A stretch of DNA of 46,056 bases from Sphaerotilus natans (lineage in GTDB: Bacteria > Pseudomonadota > Gammaproteobacteria > Burkholderiales > Burkholderiaceae_C): NCBI RefSeq assembly GCF_900156335.1, contig NZ_FTMZ01000031.1, forward strand, positions 1-46,056, written 5' to 3'. Position numbers and translations under genes: made by a program. The notes beneath the pieces were generated by a model, which saw nothing but the letters and a program-made list of their open reading frames with translations, was not told where the DNA came from and did no database searches. Below, piece after piece: positions 12,219-45,951 of this stretch; positions within the stretch are counted from its first letter, which is position 1; each line of letters starts with the position of its first letter.

Positions 12219-13307
12219 TCAGGCGGGATCGAGCAGACGGGCCACGGCTGCCGCCAGGGCTTCCGGCGTCATCGCGCCGCCCAGGGCGCTGGCATCGATC
12301 TGGATGTACATGCGACCGTCACGGTCCTGGCTCCAGCGCCCCGTCGGTCGCCCGTCACCTCGGAGCAGCTGACCTGCTGATCGCACCTCATCCGCCGTCG
12401 TGCCGACCAGCTCGGCCACCACCGCCGCCGCCCCGAGCACGCGCTCTTGCAGACGCAGGCGCTCGGCCCGGCGCAGCACGCCCTTGGGGTCGGCATCCAG
12501 GGCCGCCGTCAGCGTCTTGGCATGCCGGTGCGTGATCGTCGTCGGCGAGGCAAAGCAATCGATCACGGCCGTCGGCAGATCGGCCACCAGCAGCACGTTC
12601 GCAACCCAGGTGTGCGACACCCCCAGCGCATCGGCCAGGCGGCGGTTCGACGGGTACAGCCCCTGATCCAGCGCACGCCGGTACATCATCCCCTGCTCGT
12701 AGGGCGACAGGTCCGCACGCTCGCGGTTCTCGCGGTCCATCATCGCGAACAGGTCCGCATCCGACAGCGCTTGCGTTTCCACGGTCGCCAGCACCGGCAG
12801 ACCCAGCTCGGCGCAGGCGCGGTGACGCCGATGCCCGAAGACCAGCTCATAGCGGTTCGGCTGATCCACAAGCGGCCGGACCAGGATGGGCTGGACATTG
12901 CCGCCGGCCTGCTGGATGTCGCGCTTCAGGCTCTGGAAGGCCGGATTGGCAAAGGCGTCCGCGTGTCGGTTGGCCCAGCGGCTGGGCGCGATCTGCGCCG
13001 TGTCCAGCCGACGCGTGACCGCCGCACCGTCGTAAGCGCTCAGTTGTTCCTTGAGGCGGCTGATCTCGCTCTCGGTCGCCAGCATCTGGCCGCGGAACTG
13101 CAGCATCTGGCCCGGACCGGTGCGCGGCACGCTGCGGGGCACCACGGGCGGAAACTGAGTCCCCGCCGGGGCCGGCTGCGCAGCCGGCACGGCCGGTGCA
13201 TCGTCCTGCCGCGGCCCGATGGGCGCAGCCGCAGGAAGGAGGGGAGAGTTGCCCGTGAGTGCCCGCAGGCTGTCGGTGACGGACTGCAGCTTCGACTTCG
13301 TGCTCAT
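12219..13307 (-). CDS. parB: ParB partition protein
   Basis: A 362-residue plasmid-type ParB. After a proline/alanine-rich linker (residues 20-60) comes the CTPase/ParB domain with the GHRRHRA motif near residues 156-162 and ENRERADLSPYEQG, then a helix-turn-helix (NRRLADALGVSHTWVANVL, near 222-240) that binds centromere sites. The C-terminal part would dimerise. It lies downstream of parA on the same strand, separated by 57 bases containing a candidate binding palindrome. It would load onto parS and stimulate ParA to segregate the replicon. Confidence 0.94.
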   Translation of the reverse strand: MSTKSKLQSVTDSLRALTGNSPLLPAAAPIGPRQDDAPAVPAAQPAPAGTQFPPVVPRSVPRTGPGQMLQFRGQMLATESEISRLKEQLSAYDGAAVTRRLDTAQIAPSRWANRHADAFANPAFQSLKRDIQQAGGNVQPILVRPLVDQPNRYELVFGHRRHRACAELGLPVLATVETQALSDADLFAMMDRENRERADLSPYEQGMMYRRALDQGLYPSNRRLADALGVSHTWVANVLLVADLPTAVIDCFASPTTITHRHAKTLTAALDADPKGVLRRAERLRLQERVLGAAAVVAELVGTTADEVRSAGQLLRGDGRPTGRWSQDRDGRMYIQIDASALGGAMTPEALAAAVARLLDPA

Positions 13308-34195: not shown

Positions 34196-35443
34196 TCAGA
34201 TGACCGCGCGAGATTTCAGAATCTGCAGATCCCCATCCGTCAGGGCCGCCAGTTCCTTCAGCACCTCGTCCGTGTGCTGTCCCAGCAGCGGCGGCGCGCT
34301 GCGATAGCTCACCGGCGTGACCGACAGCTTCAGCGCGCTGGCGGCCACGCTGACCTGGCCGGCGGTCGGATGCGGCAGGTCCAGCCTCATCGCTCGGGCG
34401 ATGACCTGCGGATCGGCAAAGACATCGGCCAGATCGTTGATCGGGCCGCAGGGCACGCCGACCTCCTCCAGCACCGCGATCCAGGCGTCGCGAGTGCGTT
34501 CGAGCATCATGGGTTCGAGCTGAGCCACCAGTTCCTCCCGATGACGCACGCGTGCCGGATTGGTGGCGAAGCGTGGATCGCTGGCCAGTTCGCGTCGCCC
34601 GCCTGCATCGACCAGTTTGCCGAACTGGTGGTCGTTGCCACAGGCCACGATGACCCAGCCGTCAGCGGCCTTGAAGACCTGGTAGGGCACGATGTTCGGG
34701 TGCGCATTGCCCCATCGTGCCGGCGCACGCTCGGTCGCCAGGTAATTGCTCGCCATGTTGGCCATCAACGAGACCTGCACGTCAAGCAGGCTGATGTCGA
34801 GATACTGCCCTTGGCCAGTGCGGTCGCGGTGGCGCAGCGCCGCCAGGATCGCGATGGCGGCATGGGCGCCGGTCGCCAGATCGGCGATGGCCACGCCGGC
34901 TTTCTGCGGCCCACCGCCCGGCATTCCGTCGCGCTCGCCTGTGACGCTCATGAAGCCACCCATGCCCTGCACGATGAAGTCGTAGCCCGGGCGGGGCGCG
35001 TACGGTCCGGTCTGGCCGAAGCCGGTGATCGAACAGTAGACCAGGCCGGGATGGATCTGGCGCAGGCTGTCGTAGTCCAGCCCGTAGCGAGCCATGTCGC
35101 CGACCTTGTAGTTCTCGACCAGCACGTCGCACTGCGGCACCAACTGGCGGATCAGGGCCTGGCCCTCAGGGCTGGCGATGTCCAGCGTGACCGAGCGCTT
35201 GTTGCGGTTCACGGCGAGGAAGTAGGCCGCCTCGCGCGTGTCCTGGCCGGTCGCATCCTTGGCGTAGGGCGGGCCCCAGTGGCGGGTGTCGTCGCCGGCG
35301 CCGGGGCGCTCGATCTTGATGACGTCCGCGCCCAGGTCGGCCAGGGCCTGGGTGCACCAGGGGCCGGCGAGCACGCGGGTGAGATCGAGGACGCGCAGGC
35401 CGCCGAGCGCGCCACCCGAGAGGGATGTGGAGGTGTTCGGCAT
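34196..35443 (-). CDS. CaiB/BaiF-type (class III) CoA transferase
   Basis: A 415-residue class III CoA transferase: LRVLDLTRVLAGPWCTQALADLGADVIKIE at the N-terminus, FLAVNRNKRSVTLD, the catalytic Asp in PGYDFIVQGMGG (near residue 160), and QHTDEVLKEL at the end. It would attach CoA to a carboxylic acid using another acyl-CoA as donor. It starts six bases after the acyl-CoA dehydrogenase stop, which suggests it activates that enzyme's substrate. Confidence 0.93.
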   Translation of the reverse strand: MPNTSTSLSGGALGGLRVLDLTRVLAGPWCTQALADLGADVIKIERPGAGDDTRHWGPPYAKDATGQDTREAAYFLAVNRNKRSVTLDIASPEGQALIRQLVPQCDVLVENYKVGDMARYGLDYDSLRQIHPGLVYCSITGFGQTGPYAPRPGYDFIVQGMGGFMSVTGERDGMPGGGPQKAGVAIADLATGAHAAIAILAALRHRDRTGQGQYLDISLLDVQVSLMANMASNYLATERAPARWGNAHPNIVPYQVFKAADGWVIVACGNDHQFGKLVDAGGRRELASDPRFATNPARVRHREELVAQLEPMMLERTRDAWIAVLEEVGVPCGPINDLADVFADPQVIARAMRLDLPHPTAGQVSVAASALKLSVTPVSYRSAPPLLGQHTDEVLKELAALTDGDLQILKSRAVI

Positions 35444-35449
35444 CTCGGT

Positions 35450-36610
35450 TCAGTCCTGGCGCATCAGGTGCTTGCCGATGATGAGCTGCTGGATCTGGGT
35501 GGTGCCCTCGTACAGCCGCAGCAGGCGAACATCGCGGTAGAAACGCTCGACCTTGTACTCGTTGATGTAGCCCGCGCCGCCGTGGATCTGCACGCCACGG
35601 TCGGCCACGCGCCCGACCATCTCGGTCGTGAAGAGCTTGGTGCAGGAGGCGTGCATGCCGACGTCCGGGTCGTGGCGGCCGGCGGCCCGGTCGTCGTAGC
35701 GGCGCGCCGTGGCCTGCACCATCGCCCAGCCGGCCAGCAGCTCGGCCTGGCTGTCGGCGAGCATGGCCTGGACGAGCTGGAAGTCGCCGATGCGCTGGCC
35801 GAACTGCTTGCGCTGCTGCGCGTAGGCGATGCTTTCCTGCAGGATGCGCTGCGCCATGCCGCAGGCGAGCGCGGAGACGTGCAGGCGCCCGCGGTCCAGC
35901 ACCTTCATGGCTGTCTTGAACCCGCGCCCCGGCACGCCGCCGATGATGTTGGCCGCCGGCACGCGCACGCCGTCAAGGTTGACGTCGCAGGTCTTGGTGC
36001 CGCGCTGACCCATCTTCTTGTCCGGCTTGCCCAGCGTCAGCCCCGGGCTGTCGGCCGGCACGATGAACGCAGAGATGCCGCCTGCACCGGGGCCGTCGGT
36101 GCGGACCATCAGCGTGAAGGCTCCGGCGCGGGTGGCGTTGGTGATGTAGCGCTTGCTGCCGGTGAGCACATAGTCGTCGCCGTCGCGCACGCCGCGGGTC
36201 TTCAGCGAAGCGGCGTCGGAGCCCGCATCGGGTTCGGTCAGCGCGAACGAGATGATCAGCTCGCCGCTGGCGATGCGCGGCAGATAGGCGTCCTTCTGCG
36301 CGTCGGTGCCATCCATCAGGATGCCTTGCGAGCCGATCCCGATGTTAGTGCCCACGACGGAACGGAACGCCAGCGCGGTCTGCCCCAGCGCGTAGGCCAC
36401 CTCGCATTCCTGCGCCATCGACAGACCGATGCCGCCGTACTCCTCGGGAATCGAGATGCCGAACAGCCCCAGATCCTTCATGTCGTCGACGATGTCGGCG
36501 GGTACCTCGTCGTGTTCCTCGACGTGGTTCTCGGCGGGCACCAGCCGGTCGCGGATGAAGCGTTGAACGCTGTCCTTCAGCAGGGTGAATGTCTGATCGT
36601 CCAGTGGCAT
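35450..36610 (-). CDS. Acyl-CoA dehydrogenase
   Basis: A 386-residue flavoprotein of usual length. FALTEPDAGSDAASLKT and YITNATRAG are the FAD/substrate signatures, QFGQRIGDFQLVQ is the third-domain motif, and the C-terminal LRLYEGTTQIQQLIIGKHL carries the usual catalytic Glu region. It introduces a 2,3-double bond into an acyl-CoA and hands electrons to ETF; an etfBA pair lies in the partner operon at the right end. Substrate unknown. Confidence 0.94.
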   Translation of the reverse strand: MPLDDQTFTLLKDSVQRFIRDRLVPAENHVEEHDEVPADIVDDMKDLGLFGISIPEEYGGIGLSMAQECEVAYALGQTALAFRSVVGTNIGIGSQGILMDGTDAQKDAYLPRIASGELIISFALTEPDAGSDAASLKTRGVRDGDDYVLTGSKRYITNATRAGAFTLMVRTDGPGAGGISAFIVPADSPGLTLGKPDKKMGQRGTKTCDVNLDGVRVPAANIIGGVPGRGFKTAMKVLDRGRLHVSALACGMAQRILQESIAYAQQRKQFGQRIGDFQLVQAMLADSQAELLAGWAMVQATARRYDDRAAGRHDPDVGMHASCTKLFTTEMVGRVADRGVQIHGGAGYINEYKVERFYRDVRLLRLYEGTTQIQQLIIGKHLMRQD

Positions 36611-36655: not shown

Positions 36656-37009
36656 TCAGGGGGCCGGCTGCCGCGACAGGTGCTGCAGATAGGCCACCAG
36701 CTCCCAGATCTGCTCGGGTGTGTAGACCTTGCCCCAGGGAGGCATGACACCTTGCCCGCGCCGGCCCTCGCTGATGATCTGGTAGGCCTCATCGGGCAGG
36801 AAGCGCGTGTTGCCCTTGAAGCCGGGCGCCCGGCCGCCCACGCCCTCCGAGCCGTGGCAGTAAGCCGCGCAGGTGCTGCCAAAGCGGCGCTTGCCGGCGT
36901 CGATGCGCCCGACGTCGTCCAGGTCGAAGGGCGCGGCGGCATGGGCGGCTGCCCCTGCCGCCGCCAGCAACAGCGTCGCCAAGCTCTGGCGGAGAGTCGC
37001 TGCGCGCAT
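36656..37009 (-). CDS. Periplasmic monohaem cytochrome c with CXXXCH motif
   Basis: A 117-residue protein with a signal peptide (residues 1-25, ending AAAHAAA) and a class I cytochrome c fold. The haem-binding motif reads CAAYCHG (residues 47-53), that is CXXXCH rather than CXXCH; the codons at 36854-36871 were read directly and give no frameshift. A likely axial Met lies in GVMPPWG. It begins right after the stop of the PQQ dehydrogenase (a GTG three bases upstream is an alternative start) and should be its electron acceptor. Confidence 0.85.
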   Translation of the reverse strand: MRAATLRQSLATLLLAAAGAAAHAAAPFDLDDVGRIDAGKRRFGSTCAAYCHGSEGVGGRAPGFKGNTRFLPDEAYQIISEGRRGQGVMPPWGKVYTPEQIWELVAYLQHLSRQPAP

Positions 37010-37012
37010 CAC

Positions 37013-38698
37013 TCAATCCACCGTGAAGACCATCAGCGCCGAGCCGCCCGGCAGATCGCGGATCTGCGGGAAGGCGCCGGTCAGGAAGCCGGGGGCGTGC
37101 GAGCCCAGGCCGGTCGGAATGGCGATGTACTGCTTGCCGTTGACTGCGTAGCTGATCGGGCCGCCGCGGGCGCCGGAGCCCGCGTTGAAGCGCCACAGTT
37201 CCTTGCCGTTGTCGGCGTCGAAGGCGTAGAGCACGCCGCGCATGTCGCCGGTGATGACCAGGCCGCCACCCGTGGCCAGCACCGAGCTGAGCGGCGGCAT
37301 CTCGAAGCGCACCTTCCAGGCCTGCTTGCCGGTGAGCGGATCGAAGGCGCCCAGCCAGCCATCGGCCTTCTTGCCGGGTGGGTCCACCAGACGGATGTCG
37401 GACAAGCCGAGCGTCAGGGCGCTGATGCCCGCCACCGGCTCCTGCTTGGCGCTGGTGACGTGGTTGCAGACCTCCATGCCGTGCGAATACCACAGCCGGG
37501 TGCCGGGGTTGTAGGCGCCGTGGTTCCAGCTCCGTGCGCCCAGCAGGTTCGGGCAGTGCAGCTTGGTCTTGCCCGTCTCGGGATAGTTGGGCTCGATCGG
37601 CAGGCCGGTCTTGACGTCCACCCCCTTGGCCCAGTTCATGTTCTCGGTGTACTGCCAAGCGTTCACCATCGCGCCGTCGTCCTTGTCCATGACGTAGACG
37701 AAGCCGTTCTTGTTCAGGTGGACGAGCGCGGTCTTGCCGCTGCCGCGCGGCACCAGCAGCGCTTCATAGGCCGCGTCGAAGTCCCAGGTGTCGTTGGGCA
37801 CTTCCTGGCGGTGCCACTTGATGCGGCCGGTCTTCGGGTCCAGGGCCAGCAGCGTGGCGGTGTAGAGGTTGTCGCCCAGGCGGTCTTCGCGGTTGAAGTC
37901 GGGCGCGGCGTTGCTGGTGCCGATGTAGATGGTGTCGGTCGAGGGGTCGTAGGTGCCCGGCAGCCAGGCCGAGCCGCCGCCGCGCTGGCGGCTGTCGCCG
38001 GGCCAGCTCTTCGGGTCGTCGCGCGGGATCTCGAAGGTCCAGGTCCGCTCCCCGGTGTCGGCGTTGACGGCGTAGATCTTGCCGATGATGGGCTGGTCAC
38101 CGCCGGTCGTTCCACCGAACAGGACGTTGCCGGCGAGCTGCGGCGGCGAGGAGAACAGCGCGCCGCCCTCGGCGCGCATGTTGGTGAGCTGGGTGCTCCA
38201 CAACTCCTTGCCGGTCTTCTGGTCAAGCGCGATGAAACGGCCGTCGAGCGATCCGATGTAGACCTTGCCGCGCCCGACGGTCACGCCGCGGCTGGCCGAT
38301 GCGTAGAAGACTTCCTTGACGACCGGGTCGAGCTTGGGCGTATAGCGCCACAGCACCTCACCGGTGGCGGCGTTCAGGGCGAAGACGTTGTTGTCGGCGG
38401 CAATGGTGTACATCACGCCATCGACCACGATGGGCGTGGCCTGCAGACCCTGGGTGATGGCGCCGGGCTGGTGCACCCAGGCCATGCGCATGCGCTGGAC
38501 GTTGCGCTTGTTGATCTGGTCGAGCGGGCTGAAGCGCCAGGCGTTGTGGCTGCGGTGGTACTGGGGCCAGTTGGTCGGGTCGTCGTAGCCGGGGCCGGTG
38601 GCGGCCGAGGCCGGCAGGCTGGTGGTCAGGCTGGCGGCGAGGGTGAGGGCGCCGATCGCGCCGAAGTGGCGTGATCGGACCATGGTGCTTGCGGACAT
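37013..38698 (-). CDS. PQQ-dependent alcohol dehydrogenase, lanthanide-type Asp present
   Basis: A 561-residue periplasmic quinoprotein: signal peptide ending SLPASAA, then an eight-bladed propeller with repeated W-docking motifs (LDQKTGKELW, VNADTGERTW, LDPKTGRIKW). The catalytic Asp is in NDTWDFDA (D306) and a second Asp follows at +2 (D308), the residue that marks lanthanide-dependent XoxF/PedH-like enzymes. The position of the metal-binding Glu appears as Asp201 (TTGGDQP); Asn of GTSNAAP is kept. There is no vicinal Cys pair and no fused cytochrome domain. AGGAG lies before the start. Substrate is probably an alcohol formed by the pathway. Confidence 0.92.
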   Translation of the reverse strand: MSASTMVRSRHFGAIGALTLAASLTTSLPASAATGPGYDDPTNWPQYHRSHNAWRFSPLDQINKRNVQRMRMAWVHQPGAITQGLQATPIVVDGVMYTIAADNNVFALNAATGEVLWRYTPKLDPVVKEVFYASASRGVTVGRGKVYIGSLDGRFIALDQKTGKELWSTQLTNMRAEGGALFSSPPQLAGNVLFGGTTGGDQPIIGKIYAVNADTGERTWTFEIPRDDPKSWPGDSRQRGGGSAWLPGTYDPSTDTIYIGTSNAAPDFNREDRLGDNLYTATLLALDPKTGRIKWHRQEVPNDTWDFDAAYEALLVPRGSGKTALVHLNKNGFVYVMDKDDGAMVNAWQYTENMNWAKGVDVKTGLPIEPNYPETGKTKLHCPNLLGARSWNHGAYNPGTRLWYSHGMEVCNHVTSAKQEPVAGISALTLGLSDIRLVDPPGKKADGWLGAFDPLTGKQAWKVRFEMPPLSSVLATGGGLVITGDMRGVLYAFDADNGKELWRFNAGSGARGGPISYAVNGKQYIAIPTGLGSHAPGFLTGAFPQIRDLPGGSALMVFTVD

Positions 38699-38789
38699 GT
38701 CCGTTGTCTCCTGCATGGTGTCCGCTGCGGGCGTGATTACCCGCTGCGGCACGGTGTTCTTGGTCAGGTCGTCGTCCGGGCCGGCGACC

Positions 38790-39887
38790 TCAGCGGGCCA
38801 GTGCCTCGCGAATCCTGGGCATCACCTCGCGGGCCAGCAGCGTCATGCTTTCCCATTCACGGGCGCGGTTGACGCCGGCTCCATCCATCGAGGCCATCAG
38901 CAAGCCGCCGAACGGTCCGGTGCGCTCGCGGAAGGCCAACAGCTTCTCCGTGACGGTCTCGGGCGATCCGTAGATCACCATGCTGTCGATGAGCTGCTCG
39001 ATCGTGACGTCGGCGTCCGGCTGCTTTGGGTCATCCTTCATCACGGCGGTGTAGTTCACCGCCAGCAGAACCTTCCACAGGTATTCGAAGTAGTAGTAGT
39101 TGCTGCCTTCGGGGTCCATCACCCGGTCGCGCGCTTCTGCGTCGCTGCGGGCAATCACGATGTTGCGGGCCACGCGCCAGTTGTCGCCATCGGGCTGGCG
39201 CCGGGCCAGTTCACAGCCTTCCTGGTACTTCTTCCAGTGGCTGGCGATCACATACTCCGGACAGAAGTTGGCGCTCATCGGCCCCCATCCGCGCATGCCG
39301 GCCGTCTTGACGCTGTCCGAGAACGGCGACATCGCCGTCATCATGATGGGCGGGTGCGGCAGTTGGTAGGGCTTGGGGATGTAGCCCACGCCGAGTTCCG
39401 GCATCACGGTCTGCGACAACTTTATCTTCCAGTGTTTGCCCTCGATGTTGTAGGGCGGGTCCTGGCGCCACAGCCGGATGATCGTGTCGATCGACTCCAT
39501 CATCCGTTCGGTGCGGTAGGCGTTGTCGAGAACATCGAACAACTCCATGTCACTGGCCAGACCGCCCGGGCCGATGCCAAACATCAGGCGGCCTTGACTC
39601 ATGTGATCGAACTGGGCCACTTCAGCCGCCACCACCGCCGGATGATGGTTGGGCAGCGCGATGACGCCGGTGCCGAAGCGGATCTGGCGAGTGCGCTGGA
39701 TCAGCGAGGCCATGAACATCAGCGGCGAGGCGATGGGCTCGGTCGTGCACGACATGTGCTCGCCGAACCAGACCTCGTCGAAGCCGAGTTCATCCGCATG
39801 GATCACCTTGTCCGCGTCTTCCGCATAAGTCTCTGCGGCAGGACGGCTGGGCGGATGCAGGGGCATGCCAAACAGACCAAGTTTCAT
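38790..39887 (-). CDS. LLM-class (luciferase-like) flavin-dependent monooxygenase
   Basis: A 365-residue bacterial luciferase-like TIM barrel: MKLGLFGMPLHPP at the start, FDEVWFGEH, LPNHHPAVVAAEVAQFDHMSQGRLMFGIGPG. It resembles limonene monooxygenase-like members and is shorter than LadA alkane monooxygenases. It needs reduced FMN, which the flavin reductase encoded just upstream can supply. Strong AGGAG before the start. Its substrate cannot be read from the sequence; the downstream alcohol dehydrogenase and CoA enzymes suggest hydroxylation of a hydrophobic compound. Confidence 0.88.
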   Translation of the reverse strand: MKLGLFGMPLHPPSRPAAETYAEDADKVIHADELGFDEVWFGEHMSCTTEPIASPLMFMASLIQRTRQIRFGTGVIALPNHHPAVVAAEVAQFDHMSQGRLMFGIGPGGLASDMELFDVLDNAYRTERMMESIDTIIRLWRQDPPYNIEGKHWKIKLSQTVMPELGVGYIPKPYQLPHPPIMMTAMSPFSDSVKTAGMRGWGPMSANFCPEYVIASHWKKYQEGCELARRQPDGDNWRVARNIVIARSDAEARDRVMDPEGSNYYYFEYLWKVLLAVNYTAVMKDDPKQPDADVTIEQLIDSMVIYGSPETVTEKLLAFRERTGPFGGLLMASMDGAGVNRAREWESMTLLAREVMPRIREALAR

Positions 39888-39972
39888 GATCAGTGTCTCC
39901 TCGAGGGGTGAGCGCGCCTGTGCCGGCGCAGGTGGATGAATCGGGAATCGGAGCCGGTGATGTGAGACGTGC

Positions 39973-40521
39973 TCAGCTGCTGTGCAGGTCCAGCCGGGCA
40001 CGGTGTCCAGCCAGCCAGACCAGGGGCGGATGCAGCTCGACCGGCGCCGGATCGACGCGCACGTCGGTGACTCGTCCGATGAAGAGCGTGTGCGATCCGT
40101 AGTCCACCGCCTGATCGACGATGCACGCGATCACCGCACTCGCACCTTCCAGCCAGGGCAGGGGCGAGGCACGCTCTGACCAGGCGTCGCGCCACGGCCC
40201 CGAACGGAAACGCTGGGCGCGCAGCGTGCTCTGGGAAAAGGGCTCGAGCAGTGCATGCTGGTCATCGGCCAGCAGATTGATGCAGTAGCGCCCGCTGTGC
40301 TGCAGCACGGCATGCAGTCCGGCACTGCGATTGACCGCAACCAGCATGGAAGGAGGATCTATCGACACCGGCATCACGGCCGATGCCGCCATGCCATGAG
40401 GCTGACCCTCCTCGTCGCGGCTGGTGACGATGGACACGGACCCTGCCAGGCGGCGCATCGCCGTCTTCAGGTCGGCGCCGAGGTCGAGGCGTGACGCCTC
40501 CTCTGCAAGGGGTGTGCACAT
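39973..40521 (-). CDS. Flavin reductase of a two-component monooxygenase
   Basis: A 182-residue HpaC-like flavin reductase: LKTAMRRLAGSVSIVTS, MAASAVMPVSIDPPSMLVAVNRSA, GRYCINLLADDQ and the C-terminal GSHTLFIGRVTDVR. It reduces FMN or FAD with NAD(P)H for the adjacent LLM monooxygenase, with which it forms the first two genes of the operon. AAGGAG precedes the start, and a sigma54-type promoter lies about 75 bases further upstream. Confidence 0.92.
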   Translation of the reverse strand: MCTPLAEEASRLDLGADLKTAMRRLAGSVSIVTSRDEEGQPHGMAASAVMPVSIDPPSMLVAVNRSAGLHAVLQHSGRYCINLLADDQHALLEPFSQSTLRAQRFRSGPWRDAWSERASPLPWLEGASAVIACIVDQAVDYGSHTLFIGRVTDVRVDPAPVELHPPLVWLAGHRARLDLHSS

Positions 40522-40595
40522 GTTTCTGTCTCCTTGTCGCAGCACAGGTCTGATGTGCTGGAACTTGTTGATCTGCTGGTTCCTGCCTTCATCAC

Positions 40596-40610
40596 GCCAA
40601 GACCATGCCA
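40596..40610 (-). promoter_or_regulatory. Sigma54 -24/-12 promoter of the flavin reductase operon
   Basis: On the minus strand TGGCATG-GTCT-TGGC has GG and GC at the sigma54 spacing and differs from the consensus TGGCACG-N4-TTGC at two positions. The start point would be near 40584, about 60 bases before the flavin reductase start. Confidence 0.7.
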
Positions 40611-40673
40611 ACGACAAGAAACCTTGTGAATCAACAACTTGTGCTGGATTCGGTCTGTCTCATGCCCGTGTCT

Positions 40674-40715
40674 TGCGACACAGGGGTGTCGCATTCGTGC
40701 CGGCCCGTGCGACAC
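40674..40715. promoter_or_regulatory. Upstream activator sites (GTGTCGCA set 1)
   Basis: An inverted repeat TGCGACAC-AGGG-GTGTCGCA (40674-40693) and a further half-site TGCGACAC (40708-40715), all between the flavin reductase operon and the sigma54 activator gene. The same set recurs at 42811-42854. Proposed binding sites of the activator encoded at 40827. Confidence 0.75.
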
Positions 40716-40826
40716 CTCGGTCCAGCGGCGAGTGCCTGTCATGCCGGGTTGTCACCATAGGCAGGTCTTCGGCGCTGCTCTTACCCTGCGCTTCGTTGTG
40801 CTGTCATGGAAAAAGGAGTGTCAGCA

Positions 40827-42806
40827 GTGGTGAAGGACAGTCACGCGCATGCTGTCATGGCGGCGCTGGAAGGACGCCGATCGGTCGCCGTTCCTCCGCT
40901 GGACGCCGGACTGCGTGCTTCCTGGATGCGCAGCGTCGTTGATCACGGACTGGATCCGGATCGGATTCCCGATCCGGACGTGCTCACGCACGCAGAGCTG
41001 CAGGAGCGCCGTGAACGGATCGACGAAATGGGGGAGGTGTCGTCCGCCGAAATCGATCGCCTCTATCTGAACTTGAGCGATCACGCCCAGGTGGTGATGC
41101 TGTCGGATGCCCAGGGCACCGTGATGAACTTTCGCAGCAGCTCCACGGTGATCGACACCTGCACGTCTCTCAGGGTACTGCCCGGATCCATCTGGAGCGA
41201 GGAGAAGCAGGGCACGACGGGAGTCGGGCTCTGCCTGCGTGAGCGAAAGCCGTTGTCGATCGTGATGGGGGAGCATTTCGCCTCTCGGCTGGCAGGCTTG
41301 AGCTGCACCGTGGCCCCCATCTTTGGCGCTCAGGGACATCTCCTCGGGGTCCTGAACGTGACCGCGATGCGCAGCACCGACCACGCCTTGCAGGGCATCA
41401 TTCGCCAGATGGTGGCCAGCTCGGCACGCCGCATCGAGAATGTCCTGTTCGATCGGCGCCACGCGCGAGTTCGGATCCTGAGGCTGTCGCGCCATGACGA
41501 TTTCTGCGACACCGCCACGGAAGCGCGCCTCGCCATCGATGAGCGTGGCTGCATCATCGACGGAACCCCACTTGCGTCCCAGCTGCTGGGCTGTGCCGGG
41601 CATGATGATGTTTCCCGCAGCCTGCTGGGCAGGCGCCTGACCTCGGTCATCGATGTGGGCGACATCGACCGGCTCTTGCATGAGGTGGCGCCGCTGCGCG
41701 ACCGGCAGGGCGGTCGGTTTCATGCGCGCCTGATGGAGCCTGTCCGTCGCTGGTCTGCCAAGCGGATGGCCAGCGAGCCGCTGCCGTCCCGGACACCGCG
41801 CGCGCCGGTGTCCGCACAGGATCGTGCAGACGATGGCCAGTCCCCGTCGCTGCAGGACCTGGTCGGCCTCGACGAGACGGTCCGCGAGCGTCTTCGCATC
41901 GCGCAGCGGCTGCACGCACGCTCTCTGCCTCTGCTGCTTCAGGGCGAGAGTGGCAGCGGCAAGACCCAGCTGGCTCGCACCCTGCACCAGGCCGGTCCGC
42001 ATCGGTCTGGACATTTCGTGACCGTCAATTGCGCTGCATTGCCGCCTGATCTGATCGAAAGCGAACTTTTCGGACATCGGGCGGGCGCCTTCACGGGCGC
42101 CTCCCGGCAGGGTTCGCCAGGACGCCTGCTGGGCGCCCACGGCGGTACCCTGTTCCTCGATGAAATCGGAGACATGCCACTGAGCCTGCAAGGGCGACTG
42201 CTGCAGGTCCTGTCGGAAGGCGAGTTCGTTCCTGTCGGCGCGACCGAGCCGGTCAAGGTTCGCTTTGCCCTGATTTCCGCGACACTGCATGATCTGAAGT
42301 CGCTGGTACAGGCCGGACAGTTTCGCGAGGATCTCTACTACCGGCTGAGCGGTGCCACGCTCACCCTGCCAGCGCTGCGTGCTCGCACGGATCTGGAGGC
42401 ACTCATCGACAGCACGTTCACCCAGGCCGCAGCCGATGCTGGCGTCGAGTGCAGGCCCTTGTCGATGGCCGCGCTGGACGTTCTGACCCGACATCACTGG
42501 CCCGGCAACATGCGCGAACTTCAGCATGTCGCCAAGTTCATGGTGGCCCTCAATGAGGCATCAGTGATCGGCACGGAGTCCTTGCCTGCATCCCTTCTCG
42601 AGTTCACGCCGGATCGCCAATCGTCGCCCATGAAGGCGAAACCTGCCGCTGCACGGCAGGTTTCCGATGGAACGTCTCTTCTGGCGTTGATGGAGCAGAC
42701 CGGCTGGAATGTGTCGGCTGCCGCGCTGCGCCTGGGCGTGTCGCGGGCGACGCTGCATCGGCGTCTCAACCAGTTCAGCATGCATCGGCCGGATCGATCG
42801 CATTGA
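40827..42806 (+). CDS. Sigma54-dependent activator (AcoR-like EBP)
   Basis: A 659-residue enhancer-binding protein: N-terminal RASWMRS segment, GAF-type sensor (about residues 70-205), a PAS-like linker, the AAA+ domain with Walker A GESGSGKT (about 372-379) and the sigma54-contacting GAFTGA loop (about 420), LFLDEIGDMP, and a C-terminal Fis-type HTH (NVSAAALRLGVSRATLHRRL). The GTG at 40827 was preferred because AGGAG lies eight bases before it; an ATG at 40806 has no ribosome site. It sits between the two operons it probably activates. Confidence 0.92.
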   Translation: MVKDSHAHAVMAALEGRRSVAVPPLDAGLRASWMRSVVDHGLDPDRIPDPDVLTHAELQERRERIDEMGEVSSAEIDRLYLNLSDHAQVVMLSDAQGTVMNFRSSSTVIDTCTSLRVLPGSIWSEEKQGTTGVGLCLRERKPLSIVMGEHFASRLAGLSCTVAPIFGAQGHLLGVLNVTAMRSTDHALQGIIRQMVASSARRIENVLFDRRHARVRILRLSRHDDFCDTATEARLAIDERGCIIDGTPLASQLLGCAGHDDVSRSLLGRRLTSVIDVGDIDRLLHEVAPLRDRQGGRFHARLMEPVRRWSAKRMASEPLPSRTPRAPVSAQDRADDGQSPSLQDLVGLDETVRERLRIAQRLHARSLPLLLQGESGSGKTQLARTLHQAGPHRSGHFVTVNCAALPPDLIESELFGHRAGAFTGASRQGSPGRLLGAHGGTLFLDEIGDMPLSLQGRLLQVLSEGEFVPVGATEPVKVRFALISATLHDLKSLVQAGQFREDLYYRLSGATLTLPALRARTDLEALIDSTFTQAAADAGVECRPLSMAALDVLTRHHWPGNMRELQHVAKFMVALNEASVIGTESLPASLLEFTPDRQSSPMKAKPAAARQVSDGTSLLALMEQTGWNVSAAALRLGVSRATLHRRLNQFSMHRPDRSH

Positions 42807-42810
42807 GCCT

Positions 42811-42854
42811 GTGTCGCAATGGACAGTGCTGCTGCGACACCCCAGGTGTCGCAG
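42811..42854. promoter_or_regulatory. Upstream activator sites (GTGTCGCA set 2)
   Basis: A half-site GTGTCGCA (42811-42818) and an inverted repeat CTGCGACAC-CCCAG-GTGTCGCAG (42832-42854) lie between the activator gene and ribB. The distance from half-site to repeat centre is 28 bases, as in set 1. Confidence 0.75.
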
Positions 42855-42925
42855 AAATGTCTGGCATGGCGAACGGATTGATTTCAAGTACTTGATTCAT
42901 ATTGATTTTATTTTTCACGTCCCGT

Positions 42926-42941
42926 TGGCATGACACTCGCT
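42926..42941 (+). promoter_or_regulatory. Sigma54 -24/-12 promoter of the ribB-aldDH-etf operon
   Basis: TGGCATG-ACAC-TCGCT keeps GG and GC at the sigma54 spacing and shares GTTGGCATG with the opposite promoter at 40596. The start point would be near 42953, about 40 bases before ribB. An AT-rich stretch upstream (42890-42916) could bind a DNA-bending protein. Confidence 0.7.
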
Positions 42942-42993
42942 AGATCCTGACGACAGCAGCCACAGCAGGACTGCTCAACTCAGGAGACAGACA

Positions 42994-43692
42994 ATGACCT
43001 TGCACCGTATCGAAGATGCACTGGCTGCACTTTCACGCGGCGAGATGGTGGTGGTGGTCGACGATGAAGGCCGCGAGAACGAAGGGGATCTGATCCTCGC
43101 CGCGGAATATGCGACCCCGCAGTCCATCGCCTTCATGGTCCGCTACACCAGCGGGATGCTGTGCGTCGGTCTGCCGGGTGCTCGGCTCGATCACCTGGGA
43201 TTGCCGTTGATGGTCGAGCACAACACCGACTTGATGCGCACGGCCTATACCATCACGGTCGATTACCGGCATGGCACCACGACCGGCATTTCGGCGGCAG
43301 ATCGCGCGGCGACCATCCGCGCACTGGTGGATCCGTCGGCGCAGCCCTCCGACTTCAGCCGACCGGGCCATGTCTTTCCGCTGAGATCCGTGCCGGGCGG
43401 CGTGCTGCACCGTCCCGGTCATACCGAGGCGTCGGTCGATCTGACCCGGCTGGCCGGGTTGCGACCTGGAGGGGTGCTGGCTGAGATTGTCAATGACGAT
43501 GGCACGATGGCTCGCCGGCCTGAGCTCGAGCTTTTTGCCAGCCTGCACGGCCTGGTGATGATCTCGATCGCGGACCTCGTGACCTATCGAAGTCAGCGCG
43601 TGAACCATGACTGGAAGAGGGCAGTCGCGCAGTCCGGGCGAACCGGCCTGTTCAGCGACTGTCTGGCCTCCGCCGACCTGTCGGCATCCTGA
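42994..43692 (+). CDS. ribB: 3,4-dihydroxy-2-butanone 4-phosphate synthase (RibB-like)
   Basis: A 232-residue single-domain RibB: the metal/active-site motif VVDDEGRENEGDLI, TPQSIAFMVRYTSGMLCVGL, HGTTTGISAADRA, and the RPGHVFPLRSVPGGVLHRPGHTEASVDL stretch with catalytic residues. It makes the four-carbon precursor of riboflavin. CAGGAGACAG precedes the start. A ribB as first gene of a catabolic operon next to a flavin-dependent monooxygenase system suggests a dedicated boost of flavin synthesis. Confidence 0.92.
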   Translation: MTLHRIEDALAALSRGEMVVVVDDEGRENEGDLILAAEYATPQSIAFMVRYTSGMLCVGLPGARLDHLGLPLMVEHNTDLMRTAYTITVDYRHGTTTGISAADRAATIRALVDPSAQPSDFSRPGHVFPLRSVPGGVLHRPGHTEASVDLTRLAGLRPGGVLAEIVNDDGTMARRPELELFASLHGLVMISIADLVTYRSQRVNHDWKRAVAQSGRTGLFSDCLASADLSAS

Positions 43693-43725
43693 CTGACCGC
43701 CATGCCCTCTTCAGGAGAGCCCGAC

Positions 43726-45165
43726 ATGCGTGATCACGACATTCGACATTTCATTCTGGGCCAGTGGCGCGAGGGTGCACTGGGCCGGACCCGCCCCGTT
43801 CTGGATCCTGCAACAGGTCAGGGCATCGGGCAGGTGGCCTGTGCCGAGAAATCCGATCTGGACGAAGCGGTTGCCGCTGCGCAGATCGGCTTCGAGCATT
43901 GGCGCCACATGACGCCGATTGCGCGCGCGGGCATCATGCACCGGGCTGCGGCCTTGCTGCGCGAGCGTGCTGAATTCATCAGCACGCTGATGACCCGGGA
44001 GCAAGGCAAGCCACTGACCGAGGCCAAGGCCGAGACGGCTGCCGCAGCTGACATCATCGACTGGTTCGCCGACGAGGGACTTCGAATCTACGGCCGGCTG
44101 GTGCCCTCTCGACACAACCTGGCGATCCGTCAGATGGTCATCAAGGATCCTGTCGGGCCGGTGGTGGCTTTCACGCCCTGGAACTTTCCGATCAACCAGG
44201 TGGTTCGCAAGGTGAGTGCCGCCTTGGCGGCTGGATGCTCTGTTCTGGTCAAAGGGCCCGAGGAAACGCCAGCCAGTCCGGCGGCGCTGATCCGGGCTTT
44301 CGCGGATGCAGGCCTTCCTGCCGGGGTGCTGGGACTGGTCTATGGCGATCCTGCCGAGATTTCCGGGTATCTGATTCCTCATCCTGTCATTCGCAAGATC
44401 ACGTTCACAGGATCGACGGCGGTGGGCAAGCATCTGGCGGCGCTCGCGGGGCAGCACATGAAGCGCACGACCATGGAGTTGGGTGGCCATGCCCCTGTGA
44501 TCGTCTGCGATGACGCCGATCTTGATCTGGCCGTGCGGACCTCGGTGCAGAACAAGTTCCGCAATGCGGGGCAGGTCTGCATCTCCCCGACACGCTTCCT
44601 GGTGCATCGGCGTGTGGTCGATGATTTCGCGGCCGAGATGGCCCGGCAGGCAAGCCAGTTGCGTGTGGGCGCAGGAATGGCCCCTGACACCCAGATGGGA
44701 CCGCTTGCCAACGTGCGTCGGCAACAGGCCATGGCCGAACTCACCCGCGATGCCGTGACGCGAGGTGCGCGCCTGCTCACCGGCGGAGATCGCCTCGGTG
44801 AACAGGGCAATTTCTGGTTGCCTACGGTCCTGGCTGACGTGCCTGGAGACGCCCGCGCGTTCAACGAGGAGCCTTTCGGTCCCCTCGCTTTGATCCAGTC
44901 GTTTGATGACTTGCAGGACGCGATCACTGAAGCCAATCGATTGCCTTATGGCCTGGCAGGCTACGCATTTACCCGCAGCCTGAGAAACGCCGATCTGCTG
45001 ACCCGGCATGTCGAGGTGGGCATGCTGTGGATCAACATGGGCGCACAGGCCTCGGCGGAAATGCCCTTTGGTGGCATCAAGGAATCCGGGTACGGCACGG
45101 AAGGCGGTCCGGAAGCCATGGATGCCTATCTGAACACCCGCGCGGTCAGCATCCTGAACGCCTGA
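43726..45165 (+). CDS. NAD(P)-dependent aldehyde dehydrogenase (succinate-semialdehyde dehydrogenase-like)
   Basis: A 479-residue ALDH of the GabD-like group: [25 protein letters not shown], general-base Glu in MELGGHAP, catalytic Cys in [12 protein letters not shown], and [15 protein letters not shown] near the end. It probably oxidises the aldehyde made by the PQQ alcohol dehydrogenase, although a semialdehyde substrate is also possible. The start at 43726 has CAGGAG upstream; an earlier in-frame ATG at 43702 lacks one. Confidence 0.92.
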
Positions 45166-45201: not shown

Positions 45202-45951
45202 ATGAAAGCATTGGTTCCTGTGAAGCGGGTCGTTGACTACAACGTCAAGGTCCGCGTGAAGAGTGATGGCACCGGCGTGGACATCGCCAACGTGAAGATG
45301 AGCATGAACCCGTTCGACGAGATTGCCGTCGAGGAAGCGGTGCGGCTGAAGGAGAAGGGCATCGTCACGGAGATCGTGGCGGTGTCGTGCGGCGTGAGCC
45401 AGTGCCAGGAGACGCTGCGCACGGCGATGGCGATCGGTGCCGACCGCGGCATCCTGGTCGAGACGGACGCCGAGCTGCAGCCGCTGGCGGTGGCCAAGCT
45501 GCTGAAGGCGCTGGTCGACAAGGAGCAGCCGGGCCTGGTGATTCTGGGCAAGCAGGCGATCGACGACGACTGCAACCAGACCGGGCAGATGCTGGCGGCG
45601 CTGGCGGACCTGCCGCAGGCGACGTTTGCGTCGAAGGTCGAGGTGGCGGATAGCCGCGCCGTGGTGACGCGCGAGGTGGACGGCGGTCTGGAGACGGTGT
45701 CGGTGGCGCTGCCGGCGATCCTGACGACCGACCTGCGCCTGAACGAGCCGCGGTACGTGACGCTGCCGAACATCATGAAGGCGAAGAAGAAGCCGCTGGA
45801 GACGGTCAAGCCGGAGGCGCTGGGCGTGGACGTGGCGCCGCGCATCAAGACGCTGCAGGTGGCCGAGCCGGCCAAGCGCAGCGCGGGCATCAAGGTGGCG
45901 GATGTGGCGACGCTGGTCGCCAAGCTGAAGAACGAAGCGAAGGTGATCTGA
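45202..45951 (+). CDS. etfB: Electron transfer flavoprotein subunit beta
   Basis: A 249-residue EtfB with [72 protein letters not shown] and the adenine-loop signature [27 protein letters not shown]. It accepts electrons from acyl-CoA dehydrogenases together with EtfA. Its codon use is more strongly GC-biased than the preceding aldehyde dehydrogenase gene. The likely client is the acyl-CoA dehydrogenase of the facing operon. Confidence 0.95.

Follow-up and report, generated by a model that had tools for sequence, protein, structure and literature searches.

The window analysed here is a 46,056-nucleotide contig of Sphaerotilus natans (NZ_FTMZ01000031.1), and the element in question is a regulatory locus near its right end, in which the gene of a sigma54-dependent activator is flanked by two gaps, each giving onto an operon. 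Very probably, to judge from the arrangement of its sites, this GAF-AAA+-Fis activator docks at palindromes and half-sites in both gaps, loops to the promoters via integration host factor (IHF) and switches on both divergent operons, which would encode a two-component FMN monooxygenase pathway for breakdown. An earlier note on this DNA had proposed a single regulon read by the activator encoded between the operons, and the proposal gains support from conservation, as the predicted enhancer and -24/-12 promoter are kept in 7/7 loci with this activator and the candidate IHF site at 13 of their 14 promoters. The operons had been described as facing each other; instead they diverge, the left one reading leftward from gap 1 and the right one rightward from gap 2.

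Activator and sites in the two gaps

The activator gene (40806..42806, plus strand; identified with Pfam) encodes 666 amino acids, with a start codon that may lie further in. Pfam places a GAF domain at residues 96-204, a sigma54 AAA+ domain with GAFTGA at 353-519, a lid, and a Fis-type helix-turn-helix (HTH) at 626-657, and both Walker A and GAFTGA are visible in the homolog alignment. The AAA+ domain with its GAFTGA loop assigns the protein to the ligand-sensing sigma54 enhancer-binding class; the C-terminal Fis-type HTH_8 and the GAF domain score above cut-off, and no receiver domain is present among the 9 Pfam families listed. No named regulator family reaches its NCBIfam cut-off among the 25 of 26 matches listed.

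Each gap contains an array of three half-sites oriented toward its promoter: GTGTCGCA-N14-TGCGACAC-N4-GTGTCGCA on the minus strand at 40715-40674 in gap 1, pointing to promoter P1, and GTGTCGCA-N14-TGCGACAC-N5-GTGTCGCA on the plus strand at 42811-42853 in gap 2, pointing to P2. Pattern scanning resolves enhancer 1 into a promoter-distal half-site GTGTCGCA (40708..40715, minus) and the palindrome TGCGACAC-N4-GTGTCGCA (40674..40693, minus), followed by a possible weak fourth half-site TGAGACAG with 6/8 matches (40655..40662, minus), and enhancer 2 into the distal half-site GTGTCGCA (42811..42818, plus) and the palindrome TGCGACAC-N5-GTGTCGCA (42833..42853, plus). The half-site plus inverted repeat that had been reported for both gaps, in the same order toward the promoter, is borne out by exact words in each. 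The window has two copies of the three-half-site pattern where 100 dinucleotide shuffles have none, and 6 of the 9 exact 8-base half-sites of the window fall in the two gaps, the other 3 lying at 12613, 19544 and 41505. A further TGTCGCA (TTGTCGCA) stands at 40535, near the flavin reductase start and downstream of P1.

Candidate promoter P1 (TGGCATGGTCTTGGCG; 40595..40610, minus) belongs to the left operon and is found at the same place in relatives, while P2 (TGGCATGACACTCGCT; 42926..42941, plus), located by motif scan, belongs to the right operon; the promoter word GTTGGCATG, previously described as shared, is indeed found at both. Between enhancer and promoter, both gaps hold an IHF consensus that the earlier note overlooked, AATCAACAACTTG in gap 1 (40629..40641, plus) and AATCAAGTACTTG in gap 2 (42885..42897, minus). 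By consensus scanning the window has 3 such sites where 0.1 would be expected, and the gap sites are two of the three. Sequence matches are thus present for all three elements that characterise targets of sigma54 activators, an enhancer upstream, an IHF site and a -24/-12 promoter. In the Sphaerotilus natans genome, rpoN and a homolog of ihfA score above cut-off (the search did not cover the IHF beta subunit).

Distances given earlier held with one small correction. The half-site centre and the palindrome centre, said to be 28 bases apart in both gaps, are separated by 28.0 in one gap and by 28.5 in the other when measured by hand. The palindrome centre lies 74.5 and 84.0 bases from the first G of the -24 GG, in agreement with the figures of about 75 and 85, and the difference of nearly one helical turn is located, in the window, between the IHF site and the promoter, the enhancer-IHF distance being kept.

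Conservation in orthologous loci

Six other loci carry an orthologous activator, at 54-92% identity: G007 (91-92%, in two contig pieces), G010 (69%), G008 (67%), G345 (62%), G056 (55%) and L011, a Comamonadaceae metagenome-assembled genome (54%). Below these orthologs identity falls to 41% or less, apart from matches confined to the AAA+ and C-terminal part. Together with the window, the seven loci provide 13 enhancers and 14 promoters. With the best of 7 offsets taken, the distal half-site matches at 6-8 of 8 positions in 13/13 enhancers; 6/13, all in relatives, also have a fourth half-site, which matches at 7-8 of 8. The palindrome spacer measures 4 in ten enhancers, 5 in two and 3 in one. 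The palindrome centre is 71.5-74.5 bases from the -24 GG at 11/14 promoters, 84.0 at 2 and 106.5 at 1. The IHF consensus is exact at 11/14 promoters and has one mismatch at 2; it lies 46.0-48.5 from the enhancer centre at 12/14 promoters and 25-26 from the GG at 10/14, with 36 at 2 and 49 at 1. Helical phase across the 14 promoters, at periods of 10.4-10.7, gave a resultant length of 0.78-0.82; it was given no weight because 11/14 promoters share nearly one distance and there is no control.

Three side observations concern these regions. At all 13 promoters having an IHF-like element, it reads AAGT, beyond what the consensus requires. In G056 (L125:12300-12578) the divergent genes for aldehyde dehydrogenase and RibB have a single enhancer between them, with promoters on both sides at 71.5 and 72.5. 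Upstream of the activator gene, at window positions 40746-40762, GGGTTGTCACCATAGGC has the same sequence in G007 and G008 as in the window and a similar one in G010, and is possibly part of the activator gene's own promoter.

Several points weigh against the activator-driven regulon. The seven loci amount to about six independent lineages, since the window and G007 are close relatives, and the IHF site is absent at 1/14 promoters, on the aldehyde dehydrogenase side of G056. No partner arms lie beside the flanking half-sites. At no more than one mismatch, 2 matches to -24/-12 were found in the window against 4.9 expected by chance; P2 is among them and P1 is not, differing from the consensus at 2 positions. 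The -24/-12 motifs are credible because their position is conserved, motif matches alone not being above chance. The right operon is cut, as the contig ends at 46056. Neighbouring genes were counted in stretches of 3-20 kb, some ending at contig ends and that of G007 shortened by them. Aldehyde dehydrogenase is present in 4/6 other loci (68-95% identity; not in L011 or G345), hence 5/7 including the window, pyrroloquinoline quinone (PQQ) alcohol dehydrogenase at 56% identity or more in 2/6 (G010, G056; 3/7), acyl-CoA dehydrogenase with CoA-transferase in 2/6 (G010, G008; 3/7), and EtfB in 1/6 (G010; 2/7). The luciferase-like monooxygenase (84-99% identity) and the flavin reductase (55-87%) are found in 6/6 other loci, and RibB in 5/6 (69-88%; not in the L011 stretch). 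From these counts the firm core comprises the activator, the reductase, the monooxygenase and mostly RibB, the remaining pathway genes being only partly kept with the activator.

Distribution of the site

The genome-wide site search proposed in the earlier note returned TGCGACAC-N3..6-GTGTCGCA only at the two gaps in the 4.63 Mb genome (57 contigs). A wider regulon in the same genome was considered and rejected: with up to 3 mismatches the palindrome gave fewer matches than a backward control (35 versus 66 for N4, 17 versus 24 for N5), and the regulon therefore appears limited to the two operons.

Among 399 genomes of the same family, the ortholog is present in 3, with TGCGACA-N6-TGTCGCA at its gap in 3/3, and the same palindrome occurs in 4 of the 396 genomes without ortholog; the ortholog and palindrome draws are here taken as the same genomes, since the 23 of the 399 that are listed for the ortholog draw all belong to the palindrome draw. 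With the own genome, the source of the pattern, omitted, the comparison is 2/2 against 4/396. Three of the four palindromes in genomes without ortholog lie inside long open frames and one (G415) beside a 34%-identical regulator. In G415 (L137, at about 6420), TGTCGCA/TGCGACA words separate the regulator gene from that of an aldehyde dehydrogenase and are accompanied by their own IHF and -24/-12 matches, and the locus also holds a PQQ alcohol dehydrogenase-like gene. Across 369 genomes of the class, TGTCGCA-N2..16-TGCGACA-N4..8-TGTCGCA matched in 2, the own genome and G779; no such regulator was seen in the 600 bases surrounding the G779 match, the genes of G779 not having been searched.

A scan of 105 other homolog loci for TGNGAC-Nx-GTCNCA, with x from 0 to 19, gave 14 dyads, 9 of them at x = 4 or 5 and one at x = 8 (G415), against 4, 1 and 4 in total, and 2, 0 and 1 at x = 4 or 5, for three control words. 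Most of the 105 loci are without a TGNGAC-type dyad. As some relatives carry TGNGAC-N4/5-GTCNCA dyads, the site is not wholly isolated, and on the strength of these words it looks like a member of a type common to some relatives, distinguished by arms and odd half-sites of its own. The window dyad is 4 bp wider (TGCGAC-N8 versus TGNGAC-N4/5); the HTH register is not readable from the sequence because centre-aligned dyads (the N4 cases) share AC-N4-GT.

Alphaproteobacterial sister regulators

Trees of 68 and 72 homologs recover a window clade of 6 members with support 1.0. Its sister group is formed by regulators of Phaeobacter, Agrobacterium and Rhizobium plasmid clusters, with support of 0.996 and 0.992 at full length and 0.978 for the first 225 residues, a placement that long-branch artefacts may affect. 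Four sister regulators (L126:11517-13391, L127:10064-11923, L149 and L150), which form two close pairs by cluster, are without GAFTGA. Five gaps each in L126 and L127 held neither a -24/-12 match, with as many as 2 mismatches allowed, nor an exact IHF site, and TGAGACA words are present in 2 of the 3 gaps inspected in each. It is conceivable, with a likelihood that we place slightly below even, that the regulon has been rewired, the sister, its GAFTGA loop lost, acting on ordinary sigma70 promoters via a related half-site (TGAGACA) in what would be a traceable natural escape of catabolic genes from sigma54 control. A sister regulator working without sigma54, if true, would be a clean case for studying the loss of such control.

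The related alphaproteobacterial clusters contain 3-oxoadipyl-CoA thiolase, succinate-semialdehyde dehydrogenase (reached only partly in two of them) and 2,3-butanediol dehydrogenase. Four other plasmid loci carry a monooxygenase 43-47% identical to that of the window: L145 of Ensifer, where no activator homolog was detected, L146 of Mesorhizobium, L147 of Marinovum, where none is annotated, and L148 of Ancylobacter. Regulators with GAFTGA and sigma54-type sites are present in L146 and L148, these regulators being placed elsewhere in the full-length tree. Pattern search found no GAFTGA-like word in four other homologs, L012, L017, L018 and L023.

Flanking operons and their chemistry

The left operon, on the minus strand, runs from gap 1 through a flavin reductase (39973..40521; Flavin_Reduct, Pfam), a luciferase-like monooxygenase (38790..39890; Pfam and homolog comparison), a PQQ-dependent alcohol dehydrogenase (37013..38752; Pfam, NCBIfam), a small cytochrome c (36656..37012; Pfam), an acyl-CoA dehydrogenase (35450..36610; Pfam) and a CaiB-type (class III) CoA-transferase (34196..35443). 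The right operon, on the plus strand, holds RibB, 3,4-dihydroxy-2-butanone-4-phosphate synthase (42994..43692; Pfam, NCBIfam), an aldehyde dehydrogenase of succinate-semialdehyde type (43702..45165; Pfam, NCBIfam) and the electron-transfer flavoprotein beta subunit EtfB (45202..45951). Each gene row presumably corresponds to one transcript.

By sequence, the nearest solved structure to the monooxygenase is 3,6-diketocamphane 1,6-monooxygenase (4uwm, E 2e-34), and the luciferase-like oxygenase and separate flavin reductase of a type II Baeyer-Villiger system are both present. The chemistry and substrate class suggested by the gene content are probably as follows. An alcohol or diol would be oxidised to a (hydroxy)ketone by the operon enzymes, the (hydroxy)ketone would be cleaved by type II Baeyer-Villiger-like oxygenation dependent on reduced flavin mononucleotide, with RibB boosting the flavin supply, and the resulting aldehyde acid would be taken on to a dicarboxyl-CoA. 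Diols can be degraded through a 2-hydroxyketone and a semialdehyde to a dicarboxylate, and the gene content of the window and of the alphaproteobacterial clusters fits such a route without proving it. For 2-hydroxycyclohexanone ring-cleavage clusters, none of the papers listed from the Creative Commons-licensed PubMed Central text names this pathway. The monooxygenase, flavin reductase, RibB and aldehyde genes (38790-45165) beside one activator are reminiscent of the lux operons (luxAB, luxG, luxH).

Discussion

The proposed switch would most likely begin with an activator dimer docking on the tight palindrome TGCGACAC-N4/5-GTGTCGCA, further subunits settling on the neighbouring half-site(s), so that dimer and subunits jointly nucleate the hexamer. 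IHF would bend the DNA between enhancer and promoter, the AAA+ ring would reach the sigma54-RNA polymerase at -24/-12, and the binding of an inducer to the activator would turn on both divergent operons. The sites, their spacing and conservation, the domains and the genes are seen in the sequences; activator binding, oligomer order, hexamer seeding, IHF bending, an inducer and the extent of the operons are inferred.

In addition, the activator might repress its own gene via enhancer 1, which is found some 90-130 bp ahead of the start of the activator gene, with the conserved GGGTTGTCACCATAGGC in between; a consensus scan found no sigma70-type promoter there, and autorepression seems possible but doubtful. 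A somewhat less likely arrangement, reported for NorR, is that of three complete dimers on three dyads about 32 bp apart, whose outer arms would here be degenerate. It would account for the universal distal half-site and the recurrent fourth one, each 30-35 bp, measured by hand, from that arm of the central dyad which faces the same way, yet the expected partner arms score about as random sequence does, with means of 2.9 and 3.5 of 8 (by hand) against 2.98 (standard deviation 1.16). That the sites bind another regulator, such as a global factor, rather than the neighbouring activator is improbable: the looser palindrome also occurs in the 4/396 genomes without ortholog, but within the own genome the TGCGACAC-GTGTCGCA palindrome is limited to this locus, across genomes the palindrome tracks the activator gene, and TGNGAC-type dyads adjoin some other relatives of the same activator. 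Hardly credible is the reading of the palindromes as RNA hairpins (terminators or attenuators), for although the gap 2 palindrome directly follows the stop codon of the activator gene and, on visual inspection, might form a GC-rich hairpin, no T run comes after it, 0 terminator-like sites were found in 40500-43000, the palindromes of gap 1 and of the G056 aldehyde dehydrogenase/RibB gap stand between divergent genes, and neither the additional half-sites nor the kept distance to -24 in the two gaps would be explained.

Docking of the neighbouring activator at one full dyad with additional half-sites, the preferred reading, has partial parallels in known systems. A protein annotated EatR on a Pseudomonas aeruginosa plasmid, one of the 'sigma-54-dependent Fis family' (AcoR-like) regulators, is 37.4% identical to the window activator over 97% of the length, and TGNGAC..GTCNCA dyads adjoin some other relatives of the window activator. 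In comparison with these, the window clade branches separately (support 1.0) and has TGCGACAC-N4 arms, odd half-sites and other target genes. AcoR proper controls acetoin dehydrogenase genes, whereas no acetoin genes are found among the 18 window proteins scanned and the sites occur only at the two operons.

CbrB has a receiver domain; the window system differs from it in the near-perfect palindrome at its centre, in the word TGCGACA, and in an activator with a GAF sensor and no receiver domain. According to parts of one article, CbrB of Pseudomonas putida, a member of a two-component system, is a sigma54 activator with three half-site-like subsites on one helix face and IHF between; the article calls these subsites (TGTTAC/GTAACA) non-palindromic (PMC6296734). 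For NorR at norV, excerpts of the literature report that three enhancer sites are required and that the array is thought to aid hexamer formation (PMC8899819), and that NorR has a GAF sensor (PMC7175178). The window activator resembles NorR in its GAF sensor, predicted sigma54 activation and enhancer array; in contrast to the three full inverted repeats of NorR, the window has one full dyad and half-sites that lack partner arms. Type II Baeyer-Villiger monooxygenases such as 3,6-diketocamphane monooxygenase likewise pair a luciferase-like oxygenase with a separate flavin reductase, but the relationship is distant and the window adds its own RibB, PQQ alcohol dehydrogenase and CoA genes.

The earlier note knew of no described activator with this site, and among the papers listed for the exact words from the Creative Commons-licensed PubMed Central text, which is a part of the literature, titles and abstracts pointed to no sigma54 activator that uses it, most titles being on unrelated subjects. 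In the one sigma54 paper containing TGCGACAC, the word sits only in a lapA primer (PMC6424431).

Conclusions

The control system is well supported but fairly ordinary in kind, with a docking site that was not found in the literature searched. Activator and enhancer make up a strongly conserved pair, clear in its word and in its spacing rules, that would be useful for testing the seeding of a sigma54 activator hexamer by half-sites. According to these rules the enhancer-IHF distance is near-constant, and the promoter distance stays much the same at most promoters, two having about one extra turn and one about three. The locus also ties a luciferase-like monooxygenase that is highly conserved and uncharacterised to a gene for flavin supply and to what would be an inducible switch.

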